This document shows, one piece after another, positions 3,414 to 13,849 of a stretch of 43,882 nt of DNA (positions within the stretch are counted from its first letter, which is position 1; every line of letters begins with the position of its first letter). The stretch is from positions 1 through 43,882 of the forward strand of contig JARGNO010000025.1 of the NCBI GenBank assembly GCA_029213165.1. The letters are read 5' to 3'. A model generated the notes under the pieces. The model ran no database searches. It was not told the origin of the DNA and saw nothing but the letters and a program-made list of their open reading frames with translations. The DNA is from Minwuia sp. GTDB taxonomy: Bacteria; Pseudomonadota; Alphaproteobacteria; Minwuiales; Minwuiaceae. A program made the translations under genes and the position numbers.

Positions 3414-4694
3414 TCAGGCATCAAGCTCCATGTCGGATTTCGGCGTGGAGATGCAGGTCAGACATGACCCCTTGTTGACCTCTGCGCTTGGCTCCGTCGC
3501 GTAATTGACGTCGCCCTTCAGCACCGCTGTGACACAGGTGCCGCAGGCCCCGGCACGACAGCCGGAATCCATGTCGATATCGTTTGCTTCCGCGAACTCG
3601 AGGATCGTGTCGGCGGAGCCATCCCAGACGATCTCCTTCTCGGAGCGCACGAACTTCAGCTTGAATCCGGTAGCCGGTGCCGCACCCGCATCTGCGGGTG
3701 CATCCGTGGACTTCTTCGACTTGACGGTCGCGGGACCAAAGGCTTCGAAGTGGATATTGCCTTCTGGCACATCCCAGTCACGCAGACCGTGGAAAAGGCT
3801 CTCCATCATCGGGGGCGGACCACAGAAGTAGTAGTCGTAGTTGTTCGACGGCAGCACTTCCTGGAACAGCGGAGCACCGACACGGGCCTTGTGGTGATAG
3901 TCCTTGCCTTCGACATCCGTGTCATCGGGACCGGAATAGCAGATGCGGACATGCACGTTCTCATGGGCGCGGTCGATGGCTTCCAGATGCTCCCGGAACA
4001 CGTGCTCCTTGCCGTTGCGGACCCCGAGGAAGAACCAGGTTTCCCGCTTGGAGCCGGATTCGACGATCGCGTTGAGCATGGAGAGGACCGGGGTGATGCC
4101 GATGCCGCCACCGATGAGGACAACCGGTGTCTGGCGATGCATGTCGAGGAAGAAATCCCCGTTCGGCGCCAGCACGTCGAGGATATCGCCCTCGTTGATG
4201 TTGTCGTGGAAGAAATTGGACGACGACTTGCCAACGTCGGCCTTGGCCGGATCCTTCGGCGGCGGATTGCGCTTGATCGAGACGCGATAATATTCGCTCT
4301 TCGGGCTGTCCGAGAGGGAATAGCAACGCGTCGTCACCTTCTTGCCCGACGGCAGGTCGAGCTTGAAGGTGAGGTACTGTCCGGGATTGAACGGTGGCAG
4401 CGGACGCTCGTCGTGCGGATGCAGGTAGAAGGAGCAGATATCCTTGTTCTCCGGGTTCTTCCGCTCCACCCGGAACTTGCGGATACCGTTCCAGGACAGT
4501 TCGTTCTTCTGCTTGTCGAACTCCCGAACCGCCTTGATCTGCTCGACCTTCTGGCGAAGGAAACCGATTTCCTCCTGCACGCCCCGATCAACAATCCCCG
4601 CCGTGCGGAAGTTGTTGTAGATCAGGCTGAGAACATAGAACCCGAGCAAAGCCAGTACGGCGAATGCTGCGGTATTGACCAGACCGAATTCCAT
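3414..4694 (-). CDS. Membrane-anchored FAD/NAD(P)H oxidoreductase with C-terminal [2Fe-2S] ferredoxin domain
   Basis: 426 aa. Residues 9-27 form one N-terminal membrane helix (FAVLALLGFYVLSLIY), followed by a short charged coiled-coil-like stretch to about 65. Next come an FR-type FAD domain (RCYSLSDSP, the RxYSxS flavin motif), an NAD(P) domain (GGGIGITPVLSML and CGPPPMM), a linker rich in Ala/Pro/Lys, and a plant-type [2Fe-2S] domain with GCRAGACGTC and a final Cys in GSCLTC. The domain order is FAD-NAD-FeS after the anchor, as in HCP-reductase or phthalate dioxygenase reductase types, and the reverse of NqrF. Its place as last gene of the multiheme cluster suggests it moves electrons between NAD(P)H and the membrane iron-sulfur protein encoded upstream. 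A strong SD-like GGGGG run lies about 5 nt before the ATG. Confidence 0.85.
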   Translation of the reverse strand: MEFGLVNTAAFAVLALLGFYVLSLIYNNFRTAGIVDRGVQEEIGFLRQKVEQIKAVREFDKQKNELSWNGIRKFRVERKNPENKDICSFYLHPHDERPLPPFNPGQYLTFKLDLPSGKKVTTRCYSLSDSPKSEYYRVSIKRNPPPKDPAKADVGKSSSNFFHDNINEGDILDVLAPNGDFFLDMHRQTPVVLIGGGIGITPVLSMLNAIVESGSKRETWFFLGVRNGKEHVFREHLEAIDRAHENVHVRICYSGPDDTDVEGKDYHHKARVGAPLFQEVLPSNNYDYYFCGPPPMMESLFHGLRDWDVPEGNIHFEAFGPATVKSKKSTDAPADAGAAPATGFKLKFVRSEKEIVWDGSADTILEFAEANDIDMDSGCRAGACGTCVTAVLKGDVNYATEPSAEVNKGSCLTCISTPKSDMELDA

Positions 4695-4740
4695 CCCGTC
4701 CCCCTTTGGATATCGCAGGTCAGCTCAGACCGGTGATCCC

Positions 4741-4762
4741 GCGGGTGGATCAAGCCACCCGC
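4741..4762 (-). other. Intercistronic hairpin between beta-barrel and reductase genes
   Basis: GCGGGTGG and CCACCCGC (4741-4748 and 4755-4762) form a perfect 8-bp stem with a 6-nt loop. No T-run follows on the minus strand, so it is not a standard terminator. It may stabilise or process the polycistronic transcript; the role is inferred. Confidence 0.5.
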
Positions 4763-4777
4763 AGGACCGGATTCCGA

Positions 4778-6289
4778 TCAGAACTTCCGGCGCACTTCGA
4801 ACCGGACACCCCCGATGTCGTCGTCGTTGAAGCGAACACCATACATCGCGTCGGCACGAAGGATCCATGCCTTCGAGATCGGCAACTGCCAGCGCACACC
4901 AAGCGCATACTGGTCACCGGCAATGTTTGCCTGCTCGCCATATTGCTGCACCGTCGCCGCCTCGACCACCAGCTGCTGGTCAAGGTTGAACAGATACTGC
5001 AGGCCGATGGCACCACCGAAGGTGTCAGCCGCCGTATCGTCGAGGAACGGGAACCCGGTCAGGCCATCCGTCTCGAAGTTGATGCCCGTGTTAATCAACA
5101 GGCCCTCGGCGTTCGCAAGCGGCTGCGGCCGGTTGATGCCGAGAAAGAAGTTGGCATAGGGGATGAAGGTGTAAGGCTTTGACGTCATCCAGCTTGTCTC
5201 GAGCAGGAAGGCCATGCCGTTGCCGAGATCCTGGCCACCATCTTCGCGTTTCTGCCGACTGATGAATGTCCGCAACGAGTAGCCGAAGATGTTCTTGTAG
5301 CGCGATGACCATGAAATACCGAGGCTGTGCAGGTCCTGGTCACCGATCTTGCTGCGATCAGCGTCGAGGATGCCGTAGCCGACCTCCAGATACCCCTCGC
5401 GGGCTTCGATGAAGGCATGGGCACCATAGGCCTGAACGCTGTGATCCGCGACACCCCCACTCAGGTCCCGGATCGCCGCATTGTTCACGTCGTTGAAACC
5501 GTAGAACAGCGTGAAATCCATGTTGGTGATGTCGAGCACCGGTGAATTCAGCGCCGGGAATGAGAAGGCCCCACCGAAGATTGCGTCATCCATCCACAAT
5601 CCGTTCTGGAAGAACAGCGGCACGAAACCGACGGTGAACGGACGGTCGGTCTTGTAGTAATCGCCGGTGATGCCGGACGCGATGTTTGCCAGGTCACCTT
5701 CGAAGAACAGTGTCTCCAGGTTCAGATCCGACTGAAGCTTGCACCCCTGGTCCCTGTCGTTGCCGGCAAGTTCGCAGCGCGTGAAGTCAGCCCCGCTGTC
5801 CAGCGGACGAATGAAGGCATGCAGACGCTCCGTCGACGTGATCTTCATGTCGATGTCGATGTTGAGGCGGGTCGCGATCTGGGCCAGTTCATTGTTGCCG
5901 AAATCGTTGAACGCGACTGCCGTCCGCCAGTCACCAAAGGCCTGGACCGCGAAATTTGTCGGGTTCAGCTCACCGAAGACTTCGCTCGGCTCCGGAAGCT
6001 GGCCGGGCACATACTGCTTGCGACCGAGTTCGAAGAGCGGGCGCGGTGCCACGACCTCCGACTTGCCGCCGTAAATGGCGAGCTGCGCTTCGATGTCATA
6101 TTCCTGATCCTCATAGGCCGGATCGGCCCCAAAGGCGTTTTCCTGCAGCTCAACACGCTTGGCGCCGGATGACATCTTCGGATTGTAGTCTTCTGCGGCC
6201 CATGACGGTCCGGTAAAGACAGCAAGTGCCGCGACAGCCGTGAGGCTCGCGACTGACCGTCGTACGAGACGGAGATCCAGAATACCCAA
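4778..6289 (-). CDS. Outer-membrane beta-barrel protein of the multiheme cluster
   Basis: 503 aa if started at the TTG at 6289. I choose this start because AGGAGGGG lies 5 nt upstream and because it gives a proper signal peptide (MGILDLRLVRRSVASLTAVAALAVFTGPSWA, cleaved before AEDYN). The frame is open back to 6430, but that part overlaps the cytochrome gene. The mature protein has alternating polar/aromatic strands throughout and ends in RRKF, the terminal Phe used for outer-membrane insertion. It contains no CXXCH and no N-terminal CXXC, so it is not an obvious MtrB/PioB homologue. Position between the five-heme cytochrome and the reductase suggests it houses or contacts a cytochrome at the outer membrane, but this is inference from context. 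An ordinary substrate channel is the alternative. Confidence 0.8.
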   Translation of the reverse strand: MGILDLRLVRRSVASLTAVAALAVFTGPSWAAEDYNPKMSSGAKRVELQENAFGADPAYEDQEYDIEAQLAIYGGKSEVVAPRPLFELGRKQYVPGQLPEPSEVFGELNPTNFAVQAFGDWRTAVAFNDFGNNELAQIATRLNIDIDMKITSTERLHAFIRPLDSGADFTRCELAGNDRDQGCKLQSDLNLETLFFEGDLANIASGITGDYYKTDRPFTVGFVPLFFQNGLWMDDAIFGGAFSFPALNSPVLDITNMDFTLFYGFNDVNNAAIRDLSGGVADHSVQAYGAHAFIEAREGYLEVGYGILDADRSKIGDQDLHSLGISWSSRYKNIFGYSLRTFISRQKREDGGQDLGNGMAFLLETSWMTSKPYTFIPYANFFLGINRPQPLANAEGLLINTGINFETDGLTGFPFLDDTAADTFGGAIGLQYLFNLDQQLVVEAATVQQYGEQANIAGDQYALGVRWQLPISKAWILRADAMYGVRFNDDDIGGVRFEVRRKF

Positions 6290-6336
6290 CTTCCCCTCCT
6301 GCTCCAGACAGAGCACCTGTTTTTTCGGTTGATGCT

Positions 6337-6362
6337 CCGGGGCGGTCCGCCGACCGCCCCGG
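6337..6362 (-). other. Strong intercistronic hairpin before the beta-barrel gene
   Basis: CCGGGGCGGT and ACCGCCCCGG (6337-6346 and 6353-6362) form a perfect 10-bp GC stem with a 6-nt loop. It lies between the stop of the five-heme cytochrome (6382) and the TTG start of the barrel gene. Downstream on the minus strand the sequence is A-rich, not T-rich, so simple termination is unlikely. An RNase-processing or mRNA-stability element is plausible. Confidence 0.6.
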
Positions 6363-6381
6363 CACCAATCGCTTGAGGTCC

Positions 6382-8157
6382 TTATTTGACCTCGATCTCC
6401 ACCGTGTAGGGATGCATGTCCAGCATCCACTGGTTCATCGTCTGCTCCATCTCCTTCGTCGCGCCGACAAAGCGCATGAAGTAGATGGGTTCCGCACGGC
6501 TGCGCATGCGGGCCGACAGACGATAGGTCCCCGGTTTGGTCATCAGCTCACCCGGTACCGTGTACTTGGCTTCCCGATCACCAAGCGGCGGGATCGAGCG
6601 GCCTTCCATCCGCACGAAGGCGGGATGGTTCAGCACCGTGGTCGGAATGTTCGGCTGACGCAGGAACGGACGCTGGTCGACATCGAAGTTCACCGGCAGG
6701 AACATTTCCCGATCCGTACCCTTGAGGTTCGTCGTCAGGAACTTGGTCTGCAGGTTGAACAGCTGGTCATCGTGAGCCAGCTTGCCCTGCTGGACATCTT
6801 CCGAATGCAGGTCCGCCATGTCACCTGCACTGTCGACATAACCCGATTCCCAGATGCGGTTGCCATCCGGATCGGTCAGCGCGACGTTCAGCCAGATTTC
6901 CGGCTGGGCGCCAAGGCTGCCCGAGGGCAGGTTATGCCCGGAGTTGATGTTGGTGACCAGGTAGTTGAAATCGAAGTCCTGGCCGGCAACCGGGGTGCCG
7001 TCGAAGAACGGACCATCAAGATGGCTGCCATTCTCCATGACTGCGCGCCGCAGTTCCCGCTTGTACTCCAGACCCTCGATATTCTCCTCGATGATCTCAC
7101 GGGCCTCGAAGCGGTCATCCTCGTTGTCCCAGACGTCGGGGAATTCGACCTCGATCTCACCGTCGTAGACCTTTTCCTCGAATTCCTCCGTGCCCCATCC
7201 GGAGCGGTAATCGAACTGCAGCCATTCATCAATGGTCCAGTTCTCGGCCGCAGGATTGTGCGGGAAGATTCCAGGATGCGCGATCGGATAACCCGGCCCG
7301 TAGAAGGCATGGTTGTGACGCGCGCGGTCAGGATTGATCTCCTCACCATTCACCACTGCGGCGGGCCCGCGGGCATAGCCGTTCGGCAGGCCCGGATCCT
7401 TGCCCATGTGGCATTCCTGACAGGTGACGCCAGCCGCATTGGCCGGGCTGTCACGATACTGGTCCCAGACAACTTCCAGCTTGATGCCCAGATTGACCGC
7501 AACCTGATGGCAGCTGACGCAGAATTCGGACTTGGAAATCTGCGTGAACTTCACCACTTCGGTGTGGATCTGGTTGCCGCGCTCCTCGTCGCTGGTCGCG
7601 ACGCGATAGAAGCTCTTGTCTTCCAGAACCTTCTTCAGGCCTTCGCCATCGGAGTTGGTGTAGACCGGCGAATAGATCTTGCCCGGTTCGATGCGACGCT
7701 CACCGTTCGCCTTCGCATAGGTATCCTTCACACGATGGCAGGTGATGCAGGTGATGCCCTCGCGGGAGACCTGGCTGCGTTCCCACAACGGGGCAGCGCG
7801 GCTCTCGCCGATGGTCGTGCCGACACTCTGGTGACACCGCACGCAGAACGTGCCGATTGTCCCCTGGGTCAGATTGGTGATTGCCTGCTCGAACTTGTGG
7901 AACATCGGGGAAATCGATGCATAGGCATGGTTCGATGACGACCATTCCTTGTAGATTTCCTCATGACATGCTGCACATTTCGAAGCACTCGGGAACACTT
8001 CTTCAGAAAAGAGTTCCGTGTGCGCAGCATCGGCCGCACTGGTGTCCTGCGCCTGCACCTGCGTTGACATACCGATGAACAGCATGGCTGCGAGCAGCGC
8101 AAGAAACAGACGGGCCGACTTCGTGGCTACACGATGGCCCTCAAACGCGTCTAACAT
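6382..8157 (-). CDS. Periplasmic five-heme c-type cytochrome, c554-like head
   Basis: 591 aa. The ATG at 8157 is preferred over a TTG at 8163 because GGAAGGAGG sits 6 nt upstream of the ATG and directly abuts the TTG. A Sec signal runs to about residue 36 (FLALLAAMLFIGMSTQVQA). Five haem-binding sites follow: CAACH (from residue 61), CVRCH, CITCH, CVSCH and CQECH, all within the first half. The first has the pattern CxxCHxxxYKxWxxxxHA, shared with the c554-like protein at 12872-13849. The second half has no haem sites; it is rich in acidic residues, then contains NINSGHNLPSG, a motif I associate with C-terminal beta-sandwich domains of multiheme cytochromes. It starts 2 nt after the decaheme gene ends, so the two are co-translated. 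It is probably a soluble periplasmic carrier or an enzyme with unknown substrate. Confidence 0.85.
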   Translation of the reverse strand: MLDAFEGHRVATKSARLFLALLAAMLFIGMSTQVQAQDTSAADAAHTELFSEEVFPSASKCAACHEEIYKEWSSSNHAYASISPMFHKFEQAITNLTQGTIGTFCVRCHQSVGTTIGESRAAPLWERSQVSREGITCITCHRVKDTYAKANGERRIEPGKIYSPVYTNSDGEGLKKVLEDKSFYRVATSDEERGNQIHTEVVKFTQISKSEFCVSCHQVAVNLGIKLEVVWDQYRDSPANAAGVTCQECHMGKDPGLPNGYARGPAAVVNGEEINPDRARHNHAFYGPGYPIAHPGIFPHNPAAENWTIDEWLQFDYRSGWGTEEFEEKVYDGEIEVEFPDVWDNEDDRFEAREIIEENIEGLEYKRELRRAVMENGSHLDGPFFDGTPVAGQDFDFNYLVTNINSGHNLPSGSLGAQPEIWLNVALTDPDGNRIWESGYVDSAGDMADLHSEDVQQGKLAHDDQLFNLQTKFLTTNLKGTDREMFLPVNFDVDQRPFLRQPNIPTTVLNHPAFVRMEGRSIPPLGDREAKYTVPGELMTKPGTYRLSARMRSRAEPIYFMRFVGATKEMEQTMNQWMLDMHPYTVEIEVK

Positions 8158-8159
8158 CC

Positions 8160-10184
8160 TCAACCTCCTTCCCTGCCGGTTTCAGTCTTTCCCTGGGCCT
8201 GGTGTTGAAAGCCCATCGTCCGATTGAAACCTGGCTCCAGGTGGTACTCATGACAAAGCTGACAGTCCTGCCGGACCTTGCCCGCAGTATGACACTGCGT
8301 GCATGTTTCCTGCGATACCGGCAGGAAGCCCGGAGCAAATTTCGTTGCGTCGTGTTGCTTGTAGGACGCAGCGAATTCCGCCTGCAGATCCTGCTTGTGG
8401 CAAGTGGTGCACAGAGTGCCCGGCCCCAGCAGGTTAACGTGTGGCCTGTGGTCGTACTCGACGTAGGGGCGATCAGTCACTGATTGATATCCCCATTCCA
8501 CTTTCAGGCCGACGACATTCTTCTCTGCTTCTGATCCCGTGTCGGTGACTTGGGTCACAGCGTGACACTTCGTGCAGTTGCCCAGACCGGAATCGGAAGT
8601 CAGAAGCCCGCTCAGCGCCGATGCCTGCTCGATCACCAGATCATCAGCACCGGCTGCCTCAGCGGCCTGTTCGGCGTTGATTGCGAAGTCGAACCAGGCG
8701 CGCGCAACCGGATCGGCGTGGCCGCTGGGCTGATAGCTCACCGCCAGGCCATCTGACGACCAGCCGCCACCACGGACATCGCTGGGTGTCTCATGTTCGA
8801 TCTTCTGCATCCACGCACAGGCTGCCTGCCGCAGGAGTTCTCCATCAAGGCCGGCCAGCATCACGTCTGTCCGATGGTCGCCAGGCAGAGCCTCGATACG
8901 GTCGAAGATCGCGTCGACGCCCGAGGCCGCAAGTTCAGGATACAACGCGCCGATGGCGTCCAGGTAGCCGTCCGGGTCGTCGGCGGCCACACCAAGAGCC
9001 AATGCGAGAGCGGCTGGAACATTGTCACCATTGTCTTCATAGAAGTACTCATCGGGCTCCAGCTCTTCGAGTTCCCCGGACTCCGCCGCTTCCCGCAGCA
9101 GTTCCACTTCCTCCGGCGTCGGCGCACAGACCTCTGACACCGCATCCTGATCAAAGGGATCCTCTTCCATGTAGGGGACGTTGATCAGCGCCAGTTTCCG
9201 GTCGGTGATGCCATTCAGATGGCACGACGCACAGTTCTGGTCGAAACTGCCCGGCGGCACGGTAAGGCCAGCCTTCTCGATCTGGTGGCAATCCACGCAG
9301 CCCCGCGTTTCGCCCGCCGGAAGCTTCTCCGGGAAATGCTTGCTGAAATGGCTGGTATGGTCGAATGCGATTGCCGGGCGCATATCGTGCGGGTAGCGGT
9401 TTCCGAACGCCGGATGATCCTTGCCGAAGGACTTGATCGACTGCACATGGCAGCTGTTGCACTGGGCGTCACGCATCGGCGCGATATTGGCTTCCTGGCC
9501 CCGGTGCTCCGTGTGGCACATGACGCAATCGGTCTTCATGTTCGCGCTTGGTGACGAGGTTGCGAAAGACGCCCCGGCGGCAGCGGTGAACGTGGCATTG
9601 TGCGGTGACGTCGGCGCGCCGCCAAAGCTGTGGCAGTCAACGCAGCTCTCACCAACGGACTGGTTGGTCACAAAGGCATTGGCCCAGGCCACCACGCCCT
9701 TGCCATGGTTCTCATGACAGGCGGCACACCCCTTTTCCTCAAGCGCAAAGTTCGAATGCGCACCGGAGAGGGCGCCCGGGCTGATGGAAGACAGGACCGC
9801 CTTCTCGCCGACGAAGGAGTCCGGCGAAAAATGCAGGAATGCGGCAATGATCGCCACCACGAAGGTCGCGACAAGCCAGGAGATCTGCTGGCGGCGACGG
9901 CGCAGCGAGGGCCGCGGCTTGCATGGCGGATGCGACTGACAGCAGGAGCCGTCTGGCAGCGGTCCGCCCTGGCAAGGTCCGCCTGCGCTCGGCGGGCGGC
10001 GGCATTCCCAGCGGTCACCGTTCCGGAACGGACTGCATTCGGTGGTGCCACCACAGGAGCCGTCGAAGTTCGGCCCGCGGCTGCACGGCTTCCCGAACGC
10101 ACAGGCCCGCCCGCAAACATAGGGAAATGTCGGACGCTCGTAGGCGCTCTTCTGGTAACTGAAGCGATCGGAGTCTGTAATCAT
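8160..10184 (-). CDS. Membrane-anchored ten-heme c-type cytochrome with cytoplasmic Cys-rich head
   Basis: 674 aa. Residues 1-90 hold ten cysteines (24, 28, 34, 44, 50, 61, 71, 81, 82, 88) within two loose repeats of PCxxGPxxDGSC. RRRRQQ at 95-100 then precedes a membrane helix at about 101-117, so by the positive-inside rule the Cys-rich head is cytoplasmic. The periplasmic part has ten CXXCH sites: CAACH (153), CVDCH, CVMCH, CNSCH, CVDCH, CASCH, CTKCH, CTTCH, CTQCH and CQLCH. A haem-free acidic insert of roughly 240 residues separates sites six and seven. The haem count equals that of MtrA/PioA, but those lack this head and are soluble. The ATG overlaps the stop of the cytochrome b gene (ATGA). 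It likely takes electrons across from the inner-membrane module; whether the head binds Fe-S or zinc is unknown. Confidence 0.88.
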   Translation of the reverse strand: MITDSDRFSYQKSAYERPTFPYVCGRACAFGKPCSRGPNFDGSCGGTTECSPFRNGDRWECRRPPSAGGPCQGGPLPDGSCCQSHPPCKPRPSLRRRRQQISWLVATFVVAIIAAFLHFSPDSFVGEKAVLSSISPGALSGAHSNFALEEKGCAACHENHGKGVVAWANAFVTNQSVGESCVDCHSFGGAPTSPHNATFTAAAGASFATSSPSANMKTDCVMCHTEHRGQEANIAPMRDAQCNSCHVQSIKSFGKDHPAFGNRYPHDMRPAIAFDHTSHFSKHFPEKLPAGETRGCVDCHQIEKAGLTVPPGSFDQNCASCHLNGITDRKLALINVPYMEEDPFDQDAVSEVCAPTPEEVELLREAAESGELEELEPDEYFYEDNGDNVPAALALALGVAADDPDGYLDAIGALYPELAASGVDAIFDRIEALPGDHRTDVMLAGLDGELLRQAACAWMQKIEHETPSDVRGGGWSSDGLAVSYQPSGHADPVARAWFDFAINAEQAAEAAGADDLVIEQASALSGLLTSDSGLGNCTKCHAVTQVTDTGSEAEKNVVGLKVEWGYQSVTDRPYVEYDHRPHVNLLGPGTLCTTCHKQDLQAEFAASYKQHDATKFAPGFLPVSQETCTQCHTAGKVRQDCQLCHEYHLEPGFNRTMGFQHQAQGKTETGREGG

Positions 10185-10999
10185 AGCAGATACACATGCA
10201 CCAGAATGATGTGCCAGATCATCACCAGAAATATACCGACGGCGAGGGGCACGTGGAAAAGAAGCCAGATCTTCAGGAACCCGTTCACCGCATAGGCGAA
10301 GTCCAGCCGGTTCTTGATCTGGGCCAGGTCTTCGAGCTGGCGGAGATATGTTTCTTCGGTTTCATCGACATAGCGCCGCATGGCCGTGAACTCGCGCCTG
10401 ATCCAGGCACGGCCCGACTGGGCGCCGAAGAAATGGCTGAACATGAACCGCGGACGCCGGAAGAACCAGGCCAGGGTCTCGATGTAATACTGCGCCAGCG
10501 TATCGGACGCGGCCTTGTCGGCGGCTTCCTCGACAATGGCTTCCGCCTGGTCCCGGATGTCCGAAAGTTCGTTCGGAATGCGTTCCCAGATGATTTCCAT
10601 GCCGTTGTCTGTCAGGCGCTTGGGCATGATCCGCTGCAGCCAGTAGCCGAGAATGCCTGACAGGCTGACGAGATAGAACAGCACGGCAAAGAGTTGTTCA
10701 TAGGCACCGTCCGGCCAGAACACCCCCTTGGTGTGAACGAAGAACACGCCGATCGCGAAGACACCGGCGACGCCATGCGCCGCCGTCCAGTAGGCACCGC
10801 GCCCGAGCGGGATCATCGCCAGGCGCTTGCGCATGTTGAACAGCGTCAGGAAGACGAAGATACCCGCCAGCGTATAGCCCGTGACAACCGCCGGCTCTCC
10901 GTTGTGAAGCCAGGTCTGCCAGGCGTTCCAGGCCACGAAGATGAAACCCGCGATCGCCGCGAGCCAGAAGATGATGAGAGCGCGGTGCAGGGACCTCAT
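10181..10999 (-). CDS. Diheme b-type cytochrome membrane subunit
   Basis: 272 aa with five predicted helices (about 8-25, 38-55, 70-90, 100-121, 244-270) and a charged cytoplasmic stretch of about 120 residues between helices 4 and 5. Helix 3 carries H75 and H89, and helix 5 carries H249 and H263. Both pairs are 14 residues apart, the spacing used by quinone-reactive diheme b cytochromes for one haem near each membrane face. This supports haem pairs 75/249 and 89/263. It would connect the quinone pool or the cytoplasmic Fe-S protein with the periplasmic cytochromes. It overlaps the upstream Fe-S gene and the downstream decaheme gene by 4 nt each (ATGA), so the three are translationally coupled. 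I recognise no named family; NarI-like or b561-like proteins are the nearest analogues. Confidence 0.78.
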   Translation of the reverse strand: MRSLHRALIIFWLAAIAGFIFVAWNAWQTWLHNGEPAVVTGYTLAGIFVFLTLFNMRKRLAMIPLGRGAYWTAAHGVAGVFAIGVFFVHTKGVFWPDGAYEQLFAVLFYLVSLSGILGYWLQRIMPKRLTDNGMEIIWERIPNELSDIRDQAEAIVEEAADKAASDTLAQYYIETLAWFFRRPRFMFSHFFGAQSGRAWIRREFTAMRRYVDETEETYLRQLEDLAQIKNRLDFAYAVNGFLKIWLLFHVPLAVGIFLVMIWHIILVHVYLL

Positions 11000-12672
11000 T
11001 GATAGGGACTCCTGAACGGATCCGGGCCGCGGAAGTCGACCCTGCGCAGGGCGTCATGCGGACAGGCCCTCTGGCAGGCAGGGCCGCCCGGATTGGTGGA
11101 GCAGAAATCGCACTTGGTCGCCTTCATGATCGGCTTGTGCTCGTCATCGACCAGCGGCTCGCCGGAAAGATTCGCCACCTGCACCAGACGGATGTTGTCG
11201 TAGGGGCAGGACGCGGCGCAGGTGCCGCAACCGATACATGTGTCATCGTTGATGACGACCGAGCCATCATGCATGGAACGATGGATTGCGCCCGTCGGAC
11301 AGCCGATCATGCAGACCGGATCGGCGCAGTGCATGCACGAATTGGCGACCATCCAGTTGTCGAACGTCTGGCCGTGGCGAATGAAGCGCGGGTTGCCGCC
11401 ATGCGTCGAGGCACAGGCCCGCACACAATCATCACAGCGGGTGCAGCGGTTCAGGTCGATCAGCATGGACCGGGTGCCATTGATGTAACGACGCCCGACG
11501 GCCCATTCCTTCAGGGCATCGGCGCTGATCTCGGTCCCCGCCTGATCCTTGAGACTGGTCTTTGGTGGCGCCATGTCCGGAAAGACGAACTCTTCCAGGA
11601 CCTGGCGCGGAATCCGCAGCAGATCGACATAACCCAGCGCCGTCAGGGAACTGCCGAAGACAATGTCCGGGTCCTGGTTCTTCCAGGCGTGATACAGCTC
11701 TTCCAGCCCGAAGAAGTCGCCTGCCCCGAGATAGGTCAGCGTGCGCTCGCCATTGCCGAGATGGGTCGACACCCGCGCGAAACCGGCGCGCACCATCAGA
11801 ATTCCGTCAGGATAGTCACCCTCGTTGGCGATCGGGGTGCCATGCTCCATCTCCCGGCCCTGAGCCAGCATGCGCTTGTAACTGGTGTGCCAGTCGAAGG
11901 CACCGTGGGTTTCGAACAGGGTCCTGTCCGCCACCTTCTTCAGCTGTTCCGGCGACAGGTGCTTGAACATCGGCGATTCAGCGAGCGCATTGCCCAGCGC
12001 GTTGTTGCGGTAGGCCGTGTCGATCTTGGTCTTCCAGGTATTGTCGAACCGGCGCAGTTCCCGCAGGCCCTGCCAGCGGATTTCCAGCACCCGCGCCTCG
12101 GTCTCCGCGAACACCGTCGCTGTCCGGGGAATGCGGCCCAGGGCGGCGAGTTCACCGAAGATCATCTCCGGCCCTAGCTGTGCCGTCTGATGCTTGTCGA
12201 GAATGACCGGAATGTCCTGCAGGAAGGACGTCGCGCCGCCGGCTGATGAGGCGTGCACCTGCTGGGCGGCGTTGTTGTAACGATCCGGGTCACGGACTTC
12301 TGGCCGCCAGGAATTGCGCCACAACTGGCTCAACGCCTCGAAGAAGCCCTTCTTCGAGGCACTTGCGCGACCGAGCAGGTTCTGGGGCAGATCGGGACTG
12401 ATGACGACACGCAGGTTGCCATCAAGGATCAGAAAGGCCGAATTGCCGTAGTCCCCTTCGCGAACGACAATATCGCCGGGCTGGAAACTGATGACCCTGG
12501 TGTCGTTCCCCAGGATACCGCGCAGAGGCGTGTTTCCCGGAAACCGATCTGCGTCAATATCCCCGAAGATGGGATATTTCATCAGTTCATCAATGGTCTC
12601 ATCGGTCATGTCCGGCCCGAACGGTGTGGACCACCGCTGCGGACGGGCCATCGTCTCGACGGCTGTCACCAT
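10996..12672 (-). CDS. Dual cyclic-nucleotide-binding domain / four-cluster [4Fe-4S] ferredoxin fusion
   Basis: 558 aa, no signal peptide, so cytoplasmic. The first cNMP-binding domain (about 60-205) has FQPGDIVVREGD and the phosphate-cassette text FGELAALGRIPRTATV, which keeps the Glu and Arg that contact the cyclic phosphate; a roughly 60-residue insert splits it. The second domain (about 215-375) has IANEGDYPDGI and GDFFGLEEL but lacks the Arg, so it is probably structural. Residues 401-558 form a DmsB/HybA-like ferredoxin with sixteen cysteines: 410/413/416/420, 446/449/454/458, 479/482/485/489 and 521/524/533/537. Family knowledge: such ferredoxins pass electrons between a membrane quinone site and a redox partner. 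The fusion suggests ligand-controlled electron transfer (inference). GGAGGG lies 10 nt before the ATG. It is first in the tight operon leading to the b cytochrome and decaheme protein. Confidence 0.88.
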   Translation of the reverse strand: MVTAVETMARPQRWSTPFGPDMTDETIDELMKYPIFGDIDADRFPGNTPLRGILGNDTRVISFQPGDIVVREGDYGNSAFLILDGNLRVVISPDLPQNLLGRASASKKGFFEALSQLWRNSWRPEVRDPDRYNNAAQQVHASSAGGATSFLQDIPVILDKHQTAQLGPEMIFGELAALGRIPRTATVFAETEARVLEIRWQGLRELRRFDNTWKTKIDTAYRNNALGNALAESPMFKHLSPEQLKKVADRTLFETHGAFDWHTSYKRMLAQGREMEHGTPIANEGDYPDGILMVRAGFARVSTHLGNGERTLTYLGAGDFFGLEELYHAWKNQDPDIVFGSSLTALGYVDLLRIPRQVLEEFVFPDMAPPKTSLKDQAGTEISADALKEWAVGRRYINGTRSMLIDLNRCTRCDDCVRACASTHGGNPRFIRHGQTFDNWMVANSCMHCADPVCMIGCPTGAIHRSMHDGSVVINDDTCIGCGTCAASCPYDNIRLVQVANLSGEPLVDDEHKPIMKATKCDFCSTNPGGPACQRACPHDALRRVDFRGPDPFRSPYQ

Positions 12673-12761
12673 CTGATCTCAACCCTCCAATGATGCCCTT
12701 CGCCACACATCATTCCCGTGCGTGCCCCCGGAACACCAACCCCTTTTCCCAGCGTCAACAA

Positions 12762-12796
12762 TACCGGCATGAATGGCAAGCCCCCGCATGCCGGTA
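12762..12796. promoter_or_regulatory. Perfect 10-bp inverted repeat upstream of the cNMP-ferredoxin operon
   Basis: TACCGGCATG (12762-12771) and CATGCCGGTA (12787-12796) are separated by 15 nt. It lies about 90 bp upstream of the start at 12672. A TTGACG hexamer on the minus strand just inside it could be a -35 box, but no clear -10 follows. It could be an operator or an RNA hairpin. Confidence 0.45.
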
Positions 12797-12809
12797 CCGG
12801 GTGAAACGG

Positions 12810-12846
12810 GGACGTGGTGGTGCCATATGGCTACACCACCCCGTCC
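12810..12846 (-). other. Large hairpin between c554-like gene and cNMP-ferredoxin gene
   Basis: On the minus strand GGACGGGGTGGTG pairs with CACCACCACGTCC (12 of 13 pairs, 11-nt loop containing a CCATATGG palindrome). It starts 26 bp after the c554-like stop. Only a weak CCGTTTC follows, so it may attenuate or process the transcript rather than end it cleanly. Confidence 0.5.
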
Positions 12847-12871
12847 GTCCGTTCCGATCGTGAGCAGGCGC

Positions 12872-13849
12872 CTACTTGTAGGTTGAGGGCGCCGGCAGCA
12901 TCGAACCGACCTGACCGGTCAGATCCATCTGCTCGCTGTAGATCTTCGCCACCAGAGCGCGGGCATTGGCCTCGCTCGGGTCGGCGATCAGTGCCTCTGC
13001 TTCAGGCAGGCCGGTCGCCTTGAGAGCCGCCTTGGCCTTCTCGGCACGTTCCTGCTGCACACCGACATACTTGGCGTGATCGGTCTTGCTCATGGCGTTG
13101 TTGGCCTGAACAAGCGAAGCCGCCTGACCGGTGACGAACCAGCGCGATTTCTCGGCCTCGCTCATCTCCTCATTGTTGGATGCGCTGTTGTAGAAACGGT
13201 GCCGCACCTGACCCTGGCTGTACTGCACCAGTTCGAACGAAGCCTTCAGCGGATGACCTGCATCCAGCATCTTGCCGGCGGTATCGCCATCCAGCGACTC
13301 ACGCGCCATGCCGTGACAGTTGAAGCAGTTCGCCGCAACGTCGAAGTTGATGTCGGCAGGCATCGCGGGGATGTCCTGGCGCCAGCGCGGCCAGCGCATG
13401 CCCGCATCACGGGCCTTCTGGAACCGCTCGTTCTTGTGCGCATCCGATTCGTCAGCCTTCTTGGTGCCTTTCGGCCCATAGACATTGTGAATCTCGATGA
13501 ACTCCGAGCCCGGACCATGACAGCTCTCGCACGACGGGCCGAAGTTGTTGCCCTCACGCCCACCGGGCTTCTTCGGGGCCTGGGTATAGTGGCACTGCCC
13601 ACAGGTATCGGAGCGCTTCATGCTCCGCTCACCCAGGGCTTCCGTCACCTTGTCGGCAAGATCGGTCTTGTGAACCTCCTTGTACGACTCGGCATGCGGC
13701 GTCCCTTCCCAGACCTTGTATTCCGGTGAATGACAATCCTTGCAGGCGTCGGGTCCGACATTGGTCGGCTGCGCGTTGACCGCGGCACCTGCTACCATGA
13801 AGCCTGCCGCCGCGAACAGCGCCAGGCCGAATTTGCGTAGTCCAGACAT
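12872..13849 (-). CDS. Cytochrome c554-like tetraheme protein
   Basis: 325 aa from the ATG at 13849, chosen over an in-frame ATG at 13924 because it gives a standard Sec signal (MSGLRKFGLALFAAAGFMVAGAAVNA, cleaved before Q27) and follows an AAGGGG purine run. Four haem sites are present: CKDCH (from residue 36), CGQCH, CESCH and CFNCH. The first lies in CKDCHSPEYKVWEGTPHAES, the c554 family hallmark with a likely distal His. The C-terminal 100 residues are helical and haem-free. c554 family members carry electrons from periplasmic oxidoreductases; the partner here is presumably the decaheme or five-heme protein. It is transcribed ahead of the cNMP-ferredoxin operon across a 199-bp gap with two inverted repeats, so expression may be only partly coupled. 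Confidence 0.87.
   Translation of the reverse strand: MSGLRKFGLALFAAAGFMVAGAAVNAQPTNVGPDACKDCHSPEYKVWEGTPHAESYKEVHKTDLADKVTEALGERSMKRSDTCGQCHYTQAPKKPGGREGNNFGPSCESCHGPGSEFIEIHNVYGPKGTKKADESDAHKNERFQKARDAGMRWPRWRQDIPAMPADINFDVAANCFNCHGMARESLDGDTAGKMLDAGHPLKASFELVQYSQGQVRHRFYNSASNNEEMSEAEKSRWFVTGQAASLVQANNAMSKTDHAKYVGVQQERAEKAKAALKATGLPEAEALIADPSEANARALVAKIYSEQMDLTGQVGSMLPAPSTYK

Follow-up and report, generated by a model that had tools for sequence, protein, structure and literature searches.

Gene content and cofactor sites of the locus

The window analysed here, a 43,882-nucleotide stretch of contig JARGNO010000025.1 from Minwuia sp. (assembly GCA_029213165.1, 4.12 Mb), contains seven genes, identified among its open reading frames (ORFs), all on the minus strand between positions 3414 and ~13850 and in the transcription order P1-P2-P3-P4-P5-P6-P7. 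Their predicted products range from an NAD(P)H reductase to an outer-membrane barrel, and by gene content and motifs, as published descriptions give them, we place the locus with the PCC4-type systems (He et al. 2017, PMC5566968). The original prediction, made from the DNA alone, had listed seven same-strand genes with particular cofactor types, and all of them were recovered, as judged by Pfam domains, conserved Cys and His residues and a structure model of the P6 barrel.

P7 (3414–4694) is predicted to be a membrane-anchored NAD(P)H:FAD/[2Fe-2S] reductase with the domains PF00175 (NAD_binding_1) and, at the C-terminus, PF00111 (Fer2); its N-terminal hydrophobic segment lies at residues 8–26. 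P2 (10996–12672), whose gene runs 4 bases into that of P3, has no hydrophobic segment and is predicted to be a cytoplasmic protein joining cyclic nucleotide monophosphate (cNMP)-binding domains (PF00027 in three stretches) to a 4x[4Fe-4S] ferredoxin with matches to the Fer4 family, including PF13247 (36.2 bits, cutoff 26.2). Sixteen C-terminal Cys are conserved in the alignment, 13 in 61/61 rows and the other three in 59–60, so four [4Fe-4S] clusters are a fair reading. The motif FGE...R[TS]A at residues 172–185, which we take to be the phosphate-binding motif of known cNMP domains, is kept as well (F in 59, G in 61, E in 59, R in 60 and T/S in 55 of 61 rows). An extra FHA domain stands in front of the cNMP domains in the P2 of Candidatus Uabimicrobium amorphum (L038:9689-11704).

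At the inner membrane, P3 (10181–10999) has five hydrophobic regions and appears to be a five-helix dihaem cytochrome b. His75, His89, His249 and His263, in pairs 14 residues apart, are present in 48/48 rows, and because these four His are invariant, two b haems are a fair reading. Two WX3HX13H motifs (at 71 and 245 in the window) also occur in 48/48 rows, and SGXXG occurs in 37 of them (SGILG at 114 in the window), the exact motif being missing in 11. A profile search of the Protein Data Bank (PDB) gave no credible match for P3.

P4 (8160–10184) is predicted to combine a cytoplasmic domain with eight Cys, one transmembrane helix and a periplasmic decahaem domain; the profile matches of P4 are generic multihaem cytochromes. 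The eight-Cys tandem-repeat domain (9897–10184), delimited by Cys spacing and Lys/Arg counts, occupies the first 95 residues and is built from two C-x9-C-x9-C-x5/6-C units; all eight Cys are kept in 51/53 rows. It should face the cytoplasm by the positive-inside rule, since six Arg/Lys precede the transmembrane helix and one follows it. This domain, which the original prediction had not listed, has no Pfam match at E 10 and its best PDB match (E 0.16) is not credible, and we regard it as a candidate undescribed redox domain. In total 18 His are present in 53/53 rows of P4, namely those of the ten CXXCH sites and eight more.

P1 (12872–13849; the start is uncertain, the ORF being open to 13924) is predicted to be a periplasmic tetrahaem c554-type cytochrome (PF13435) with four CXXCH sites, and P5 (6382–8163) an exported pentahaem cytochrome (PF13435) with five sites and a beta-rich C-terminal part. 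Together with the ten sites of P4 these make up the 19 that had been claimed; among the seven proteins, only these three contain any. In 2000 shuffles, copies of P1, P4 and P5 had on average 0.01, 0.07 and 0.004 sites, with maxima of 1, 2 and 1, which rules out an origin of the haem motifs by chance. Among the clustered proteins of relatives, haems numbered exactly ten in 42/47 P4, five in 26/27 P5 and four in 30/46 P1, and most of the three-haem P1-like proteins are divergent proteins of the Verrucomicrobial layout described below. Four further His of P1 are conserved in 43–46 of 46 rows; it should be noted that the alignments include near-copies and that two rows of this P1 set repeat records. 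In both P1 and P5 the additional conserved His suffice to give every haem bis-His ligation, which argues for electron transfer rather than haem catalysis in these two proteins.

P5 has a profile match (E 4e-17) to PDB 5ze8, which we take to be, in origin and role, the pentahaem cytochrome c552 of Thermochromatium tepidum; the match covers the haem domain and a short stretch of the beta region. The P5 model (predicted local distance difference test score, pLDDT, 78.7) gave weak matches only, to beta-sandwich and unrelated proteins, in a fold search. The signal region of the window P5 has no Cys, so that this protein is presumably not a lipoprotein. P6 (4778–6313; the start is uncertain, the ORF being open to 6430) has no Pfam or NCBIfam match and is predicted from its structure model to be an outer-membrane porin-type barrel. 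The model (pLDDT 85.2) has ~18–19 strands after residue 118 and matches OprD/Occ, MOMP and AlgE channels with Z of ~23–27; these channels are 18-stranded. P6 thus models as an OprD/AlgE-type channel rather than as an MtrB-like sheath.

Conservation of the unit and exchange of its outer part

Loci were sampled by scanning named genomes with a P2 profile and taking the best 80 of at least 575 relatives, which makes the spread reported here a lower bound, biased to close relatives. Removal of 15 generic or distant matches (L089-L103) and of three repeats (L024, L025 and L064) left 62 usable loci. One of the repeats, L024, comes from a metagenome-assembled genome (MAG) labelled Minwuia thermotolerans, whose P2 shares 99% identity with the window P2.

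Within the genus, all seven genes stand in the same order in four of the six other loci fetched, and the remaining two are cut by contig ends, one missing P1 and the other both P1 and P7. The complete set also occurs in other families, in the window order in L016 and as P5-P6-P7-P1-P2-P3-P4 in L017. Carriers belong to at least five phyla as labelled, namely Pseudomonadota (Alpha- and Gammaproteobacteria), Planctomycetota, Verrucomicrobiota, Nitrospinota and Hydrogenedentota; many are MAGs, and the isolates include Ferruginivarius sediminum and Tistlia consotensis. Across the 62 loci, P3 was found in 58, P4 in 57, P7 in 57, P1 or a P1-like protein in 54, P6 in 32 and P5 in 30, with all seven genes in 29. 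Of the four loci without P3, three (L036, L055 and L080) end near P2, and the fourth (L062) has P2 only.

Other ways of picking genomes gave a similar picture. Loci picked by P3 had P2 and P4 in 14/14 cases, three of which repeat earlier records. Strong P2 and strong P5 matches fell in the same 9/60 relatives, a tenth (G015) having a P5 fragment at a contig end. P5 was detected (E <= 1e-40) in 26/289 Alphaproteobacteria, and all 26 have a P3 match, strong in 19 and weak in 7; any P3 match was found in 69/387 Alphaproteobacteria. On plasmids, P5 had only remote matches, below 25% identity, in five plasmid records, and a tblastn search for viral carriage found no P2 relative.

Overall, these sequence data indicate that the seven genes form a real unit kept across phyla, and the conserved gene set and cofactor sites are in agreement with the original claim of one electron-transfer unit reaching from the cytoplasm to the outer membrane. 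The co-occurrence proposed there as a check was observed, with few arrangements across phyla. Scattering of the genes, named there as a refutation, was not found for the unit as a whole, although half of the loci have no P5-P6 pair next to the core.

P5 and P6 behave differently from the rest in another respect. They are adjacent in 30/30 loci holding both, and in the P5 tree the protein splits into two deep groups, A and B (the trees were built quickly, and several of their forks are weak). One clade of the core, with a Shimodaira–Hasegawa-like approximate likelihood ratio (SH-aLRT) support of 100, comprises 13 loci, 10 of type A and 3 of type B. Within it, the mean identities for A-A and A-B comparisons are 50 and 52% for P1, 62 and 62% for P2, 47 and 48% for P3, 41 and 43% for P4, and 56 and 58% for P7; for the cassette they are 63 vs 37% for P5 and 53 vs 24% for P6. 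On the P2 tree, which covers 32 loci, the P5 type label has to change six times, and L016 and L027, both of type B, share the gene order of their type A neighbours. These comparisons indicate that P5-P6 is an exchangeable outer cassette. Eight genomes of other than Verrucomicrobial layout lack P5 at the core; in six of them a full-length P5 lies elsewhere, and in two (L054 and L087) there is none.

Genes for class III nucleotide cyclases were found near the unit in 9/62 loci compared with 1.13 expected. Nine was never reached in 300,000 simulations in which loci were treated as independent; the expectation came from genome-wide cyclase densities, determined for 30 loci and set to the median of these for the remaining 32. 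The choice of the 30 was not blind, as it included every one of the nine cyclase-positive loci. The distance to the cyclase is at most 150 bases in L057, L070, L083 and L086, at most 760 in L055 and L066, and 1.8–3.1 kb in L026, L029 and L048. The four cyclases scanned all have a Guanylate_cyc domain, one of them with CHASE2.

Three minor features of the sampled loci may be added. Two genomes, G301 (L113 and L114) and G421 (L117 and L118), have two core copies each, with differing arrangements. Tandem tetrahaem P1 genes, two per locus, occur in the planctomycete loci L066, L067, L070 and L086. In the same-genus MAG G005, the P5 gene (L023:1814-3595) has an internal TGA after a stretch that looks out of frame, presumably a sign of misassembly or of a disrupted gene.

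PCC4 and other named systems

He et al. 2017 (PMC5566968) describe PCC4, proposed in silico, as a porin with three periplasmic cytochromes of 4, 5 and 10 haems and an inner-membrane protein ('IMP') of five helices with two WX3HX13H motifs and SGXXG on helix 4; the cluster as described there has no extracellular multihaem cytochrome. The window holds the same elements, a porin, cytochromes of 4, 5 and 10 haems and, in P3, an IMP with both motifs and SGXXG. In Subgroup II of that paper an Fe-S gene (PF13247) lies directly upstream of the IMP gene and redox genes lie upstream of the tetrahaem gene. The first feature is shared, as P2 (PF13247) lies directly upstream of P3, whereas P7 is the last gene of the window locus and is not upstream of P1; it does lie directly upstream of P1 in L046, L063 and L037. 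Given this gene order, we do not place the locus in either PCC4 subgroup or any other. The PCC4 carriers reported are Zeta-, Gamma- and Alphaproteobacteria and Planctomycetes (PMC5566968), and Alpha- and Gammaproteobacteria and Planctomycetes are among the carriers of both. The view that the locus matches no named system thus has to be given up, as its content and IMP signature are those of PCC4.

Its cNMP domains, its eight-Cys domain, the cyclase genes nearby and the exchange of its cassette appear to set the present system apart from PCC4 as the main text describes it, and the direction of flow proposed for PCC4 is opposite to that favoured below. The main text of PMC5566968 does not contain the terms 'cyclic nucleotide', 'ferredoxin' or 'FHA'. 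Compared with PCC4 as published, the cNMP domains with their cyclase neighbours, the eight-Cys domain, the cassette exchange, the porin-type barrel and a second core described in the next section look new. A literature search found no published account of cNMP control of such systems, which is weak evidence that none has been published. PCC4, so far an in-silico proposal in the account cited, appears here as a conserved modular unit in at least five phyla, including named isolates, and we draw attention to its exchangeable outer cassette and to a cytoplasmic end that seems to be regulated, as well as to the eight-Cys domain and the second core.

The extHIJKLMNOPQS cluster of Geobacter is described as having the porin ExtI, the pentahaem ExtKL, deca- and tetrahaem cytochromes, an inner-membrane cytochrome b and an Fe-S protein (PMC5877670, PMC6148476). 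It resembles the present unit in its porin, 5-, 10- and 4-haem cytochromes, cytochrome b and Fe-S protein and in combining a variable outer with a conserved periplasmic part, but on the Geobacter side there are a Rieske protein in place of the ferredoxin, an extra 12-haem protein and a rhodanese lipoprotein, and the descriptions cited mention neither an NAD(P)H reductase nor a cNMP domain. P5 scores 53.6 bits against the ExtKL model NF040886 (cutoff 250) and is remote kin only.

In seven loci of one arrangement of the unit, the Verrucomicrobial layout, a large protein family lies downstream of the core (L045, L049, L052, L053, L059, L061 and L079), with no Pfam match in L053, where this was tested. 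In L053, L059 and L061 a ~1300-residue ten-haem protein comes next, with LVIVD repeats in L053 (14133-20498), the one scanned. Five loci (L041, L043, L048, L050 and L071) extend at least 3.9 kb beyond P4 without that large protein family. L053 belongs to IMCC26134, a genome in which He et al. 2017 (PMC5615132) report a novel cluster of porin and multihaem genes. In it the P7-P2-P3-P4 core stands directly beside the large protein and the ten-haem gene, and this locus is likely the porin-multihaem cluster of that paper, as far as its description goes. It should be noted that the P5 and P6 profiles recognise neither the large protein nor the ten-haem protein, and that PMC5615132 gives eight-haem periplasmic cytochromes. 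HbpS-like (GlcG-type) proteins adjoin the Verrucomicrobial core (L053:5917-7449) and also a core of the second type (L123:5390-7312).

A decahaem cytochrome and an outer-membrane barrel are also shared with MtrCAB/PioAB, from which the present system differs in its porin-type barrel model and its cytoplasmic end of NAD(P)H reductase and ferredoxin. MtrB_PioB (PF11854) has no match in P6 or in the own genome, and of 42 carrier entries two have a match above the cutoff and three have one at E <= 0.001. The fold comparisons of P6 gave no MtrB entry among the matches listed, which carries no weight by itself. The only match to the DmsE/MtrA decahaem model TIGR03508 is P5, with 29.8 bits (cutoff 192.2), P4 not being listed. 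Membership in Mtr/Pio was rejected on these grounds, in line with the original statement that the locus differs from Mtr/Pio and has no MtrB-like protein. P4 scores 35.4 bits against HmcA (NF045713, cutoff 400) and 27.6 bits against QrcA (NF041781, cutoff 180), which does not place it with Hmc or Qrc.

Proposed electron flow, its alternatives and a second core

Drawing on features read from the sequences (PCC4-type content, cofactor sites, the cNMP phosphate-binding motif, some cyclase neighbours, cassette exchange and the barrel model), we infer a direction of flow, a gating, an order of carriers and a type of acceptor. On the cytoplasmic side of the inner membrane, P7 would take electrons from NAD(P)H and reduce P2, and a cyclic nucleotide bound to P2 would open or close the step from P7 to P2. 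Electrons would then pass from P2 to the membrane pair of P3, with its two b haems, and P4, with its cytoplasmic eight-Cys domain followed by ten c haems. The tetrahaem P1 would shuttle them across the periplasm to the pentahaem P5 at the outer membrane, where the P5-P6 cassette would set the acceptor, P6 most likely admitting a small acceptor rather than serving as the sheath of a haem wire. We give about even chances to this NAD(P)H-driven, cyclic-nucleotide-gated export by a PCC4-class system whose acceptor is set by the outer cassette. Two points favour export: an NAD(P)H reductase is part of the unit, and 32/42 carrier entries, including 5/5 Minwuia-genus genomes, have no match in a search for the RuBisCO family, which includes RuBisCO-like proteins. 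If cyclic nucleotides do gate the system, as the domains of P2 suggest, a second messenger would switch a transmembrane electron circuit directly, beyond control by transcription alone.

Several observations weigh against this proposal. The phosphate-binding pattern is found in just one stretch of the window P2. The cyclase excess comes from nine loci, of which two (L070 and L086) are almost copies of each other and two more (L026 and L029) belong to cyclase-rich Alphaproteobacteria, and the contig of the window has no cyclase gene, the own genome having 12 elsewhere. On one planctomycete contig, P2 (L062:238-2007) is followed by none of the other six genes in 6 kb downstream. The P5-P6 pair is not beside the core in 32/62 loci, and 14 genomes of Verrucomicrobial layout have no full-length P5 anywhere in the assembly; 13 of these are labelled Verrucomicrobiota or kin and one (L043) Proteobacteria, while L033 and L058, labelled Verrucomicrobia, have both P5 and P6. 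By count, two haems of P4 have no invariant distal His, so that a reactive haem is possible there. RuBisCO-family genes do occur in 10/42 carrier entries (9/41 distinct, as L029 and G127 give identical matches), and He et al. draw the flow of PCC4 inward, from a donor to the quinone pool, on the basis of iron oxidisers (PMC5566968).

This inward flow is the basis of one alternative, in which an extracellular donor such as Fe(II) or Mn(II) is oxidised and electrons pass to quinone or NAD(P)+. The genomes in which PCC4 was discovered are those of four iron-oxidising marine Zetaproteobacteria and of a Hyphomicrobium from a pyrite-oxidising enrichment (PMC5566968), and the ten carrier entries with RuBisCO-family genes also speak for this reading. 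Against it, the unit contains a reductase of the NAD(P)H:[2Fe-2S] kind together with a ferredoxin of four clusters, a partner for quinone was not found, and the five Minwuia-genus genomes searched have no RuBisCO-family match. Moreover, reduction of NAD(P)+ with electrons from Fe(II) needs an energy input, and none is evident among the seven genes. We consider uptake unlikely.

The nature of the acceptor leaves two further alternatives. As the P6 model resembles OprD/AlgE-type channels, a haem conduit through the barrel is doubtful, and on this model entry of a small acceptor into the periplasm is no less likely than a haem wire through P6; of the conduit from NAD(P)H or quinol to the outer membrane originally envisaged, the conserved unit from cytoplasm to outer membrane stands, and the passage of haems through the barrel is the doubtful part. 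The unit might then be a dedicated reductase for a soluble substrate, with P6 as a substrate-specific porin and P5, or a haem of P4, reducing, for example, an oxyanion in the periplasm, which would not be extracellular electron transfer proper. The OprD/Occ/AlgE-type model of P6 would suit this, P5 is remote kin of ExtKL, whose partner porin ExtI is reported to matter for selenite and tellurite reduction (PMC5877670, PMC6148476), and cassette types would be substrate types. However, the conserved distal His can cap all haems of P1 and P5, leaving no open catalytic haem evident there, and the Pfam and NCBIfam searches found no known terminal-substrate reductase domain in the unit; we regard this explanation as rather unlikely. 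A solid-state conduit, with P5 inside P6 like MtrA in MtrB and electrons passing to surface minerals, would agree with the constant neighbourhood of P5 and P6 and their joint exchange, and also with IMCC26134, where the core is followed by the large protein and the ten-haem LVIVD protein in a genome reported to have a porin-cytochrome cluster (PMC5615132). The porin-type model of P6 and its lack of an MtrB_PioB match speak against it, the window P5 is not a lipoprotein and no surface partner is encoded, and this explanation appears improbable. The swappable cassette offers a natural handle for finding acceptors.

A second core was found via weak P3 relatives (L122-L126, with L125:7773-12772, and L127:6406-12734) and consists of a fused ferredoxin, a cytochrome b and a decahaem protein. 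The fused protein contains Pyr_redox, cNMP and Fer4 domains in the two loci scanned (L123 and L125). The head of the decahaem protein is FHA-like, not of the eight-Cys type (FHA above the cutoff in L123, just below it in L125, and a related sub-cutoff match in L127). The FGE...R[TS]A motif is kept in 4/5 second-core ferredoxins, the fifth (L124) having FGE with RGA. This core adjoins P1, P5 and P6 in L125, and L127 has P1, P3-like, P4-like, P5 and P6 genes in a row. From the gene neighbourhoods, the second core can use the same outer cassette, and, by the domain matches, cNMP domains go with both cores despite the different entry flavoproteins. It is therefore tempting to see a widespread class of cyclic-nucleotide-gated export machines with two entry flavoproteins, the same inner-membrane wiring and acceptor-specific cassettes, a generalisation that we put forward tentatively, as somewhat short of an even chance. 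If true, it would mean direct control of respiratory electron flux by a second messenger at the protein level, and it would add a new metal-binding, probably Fe-S, eight-Cys domain.

Among the distant matches, the acidobacterial locus L089:149-15893 has a protein without a match to the FGE...R[TS]A pattern. One frame of 1109 residues at this locus combines FHA, haems, Fer4 and Pyr_redox, another combines cNMP and Fer4, and several more multihaem genes lie around them.

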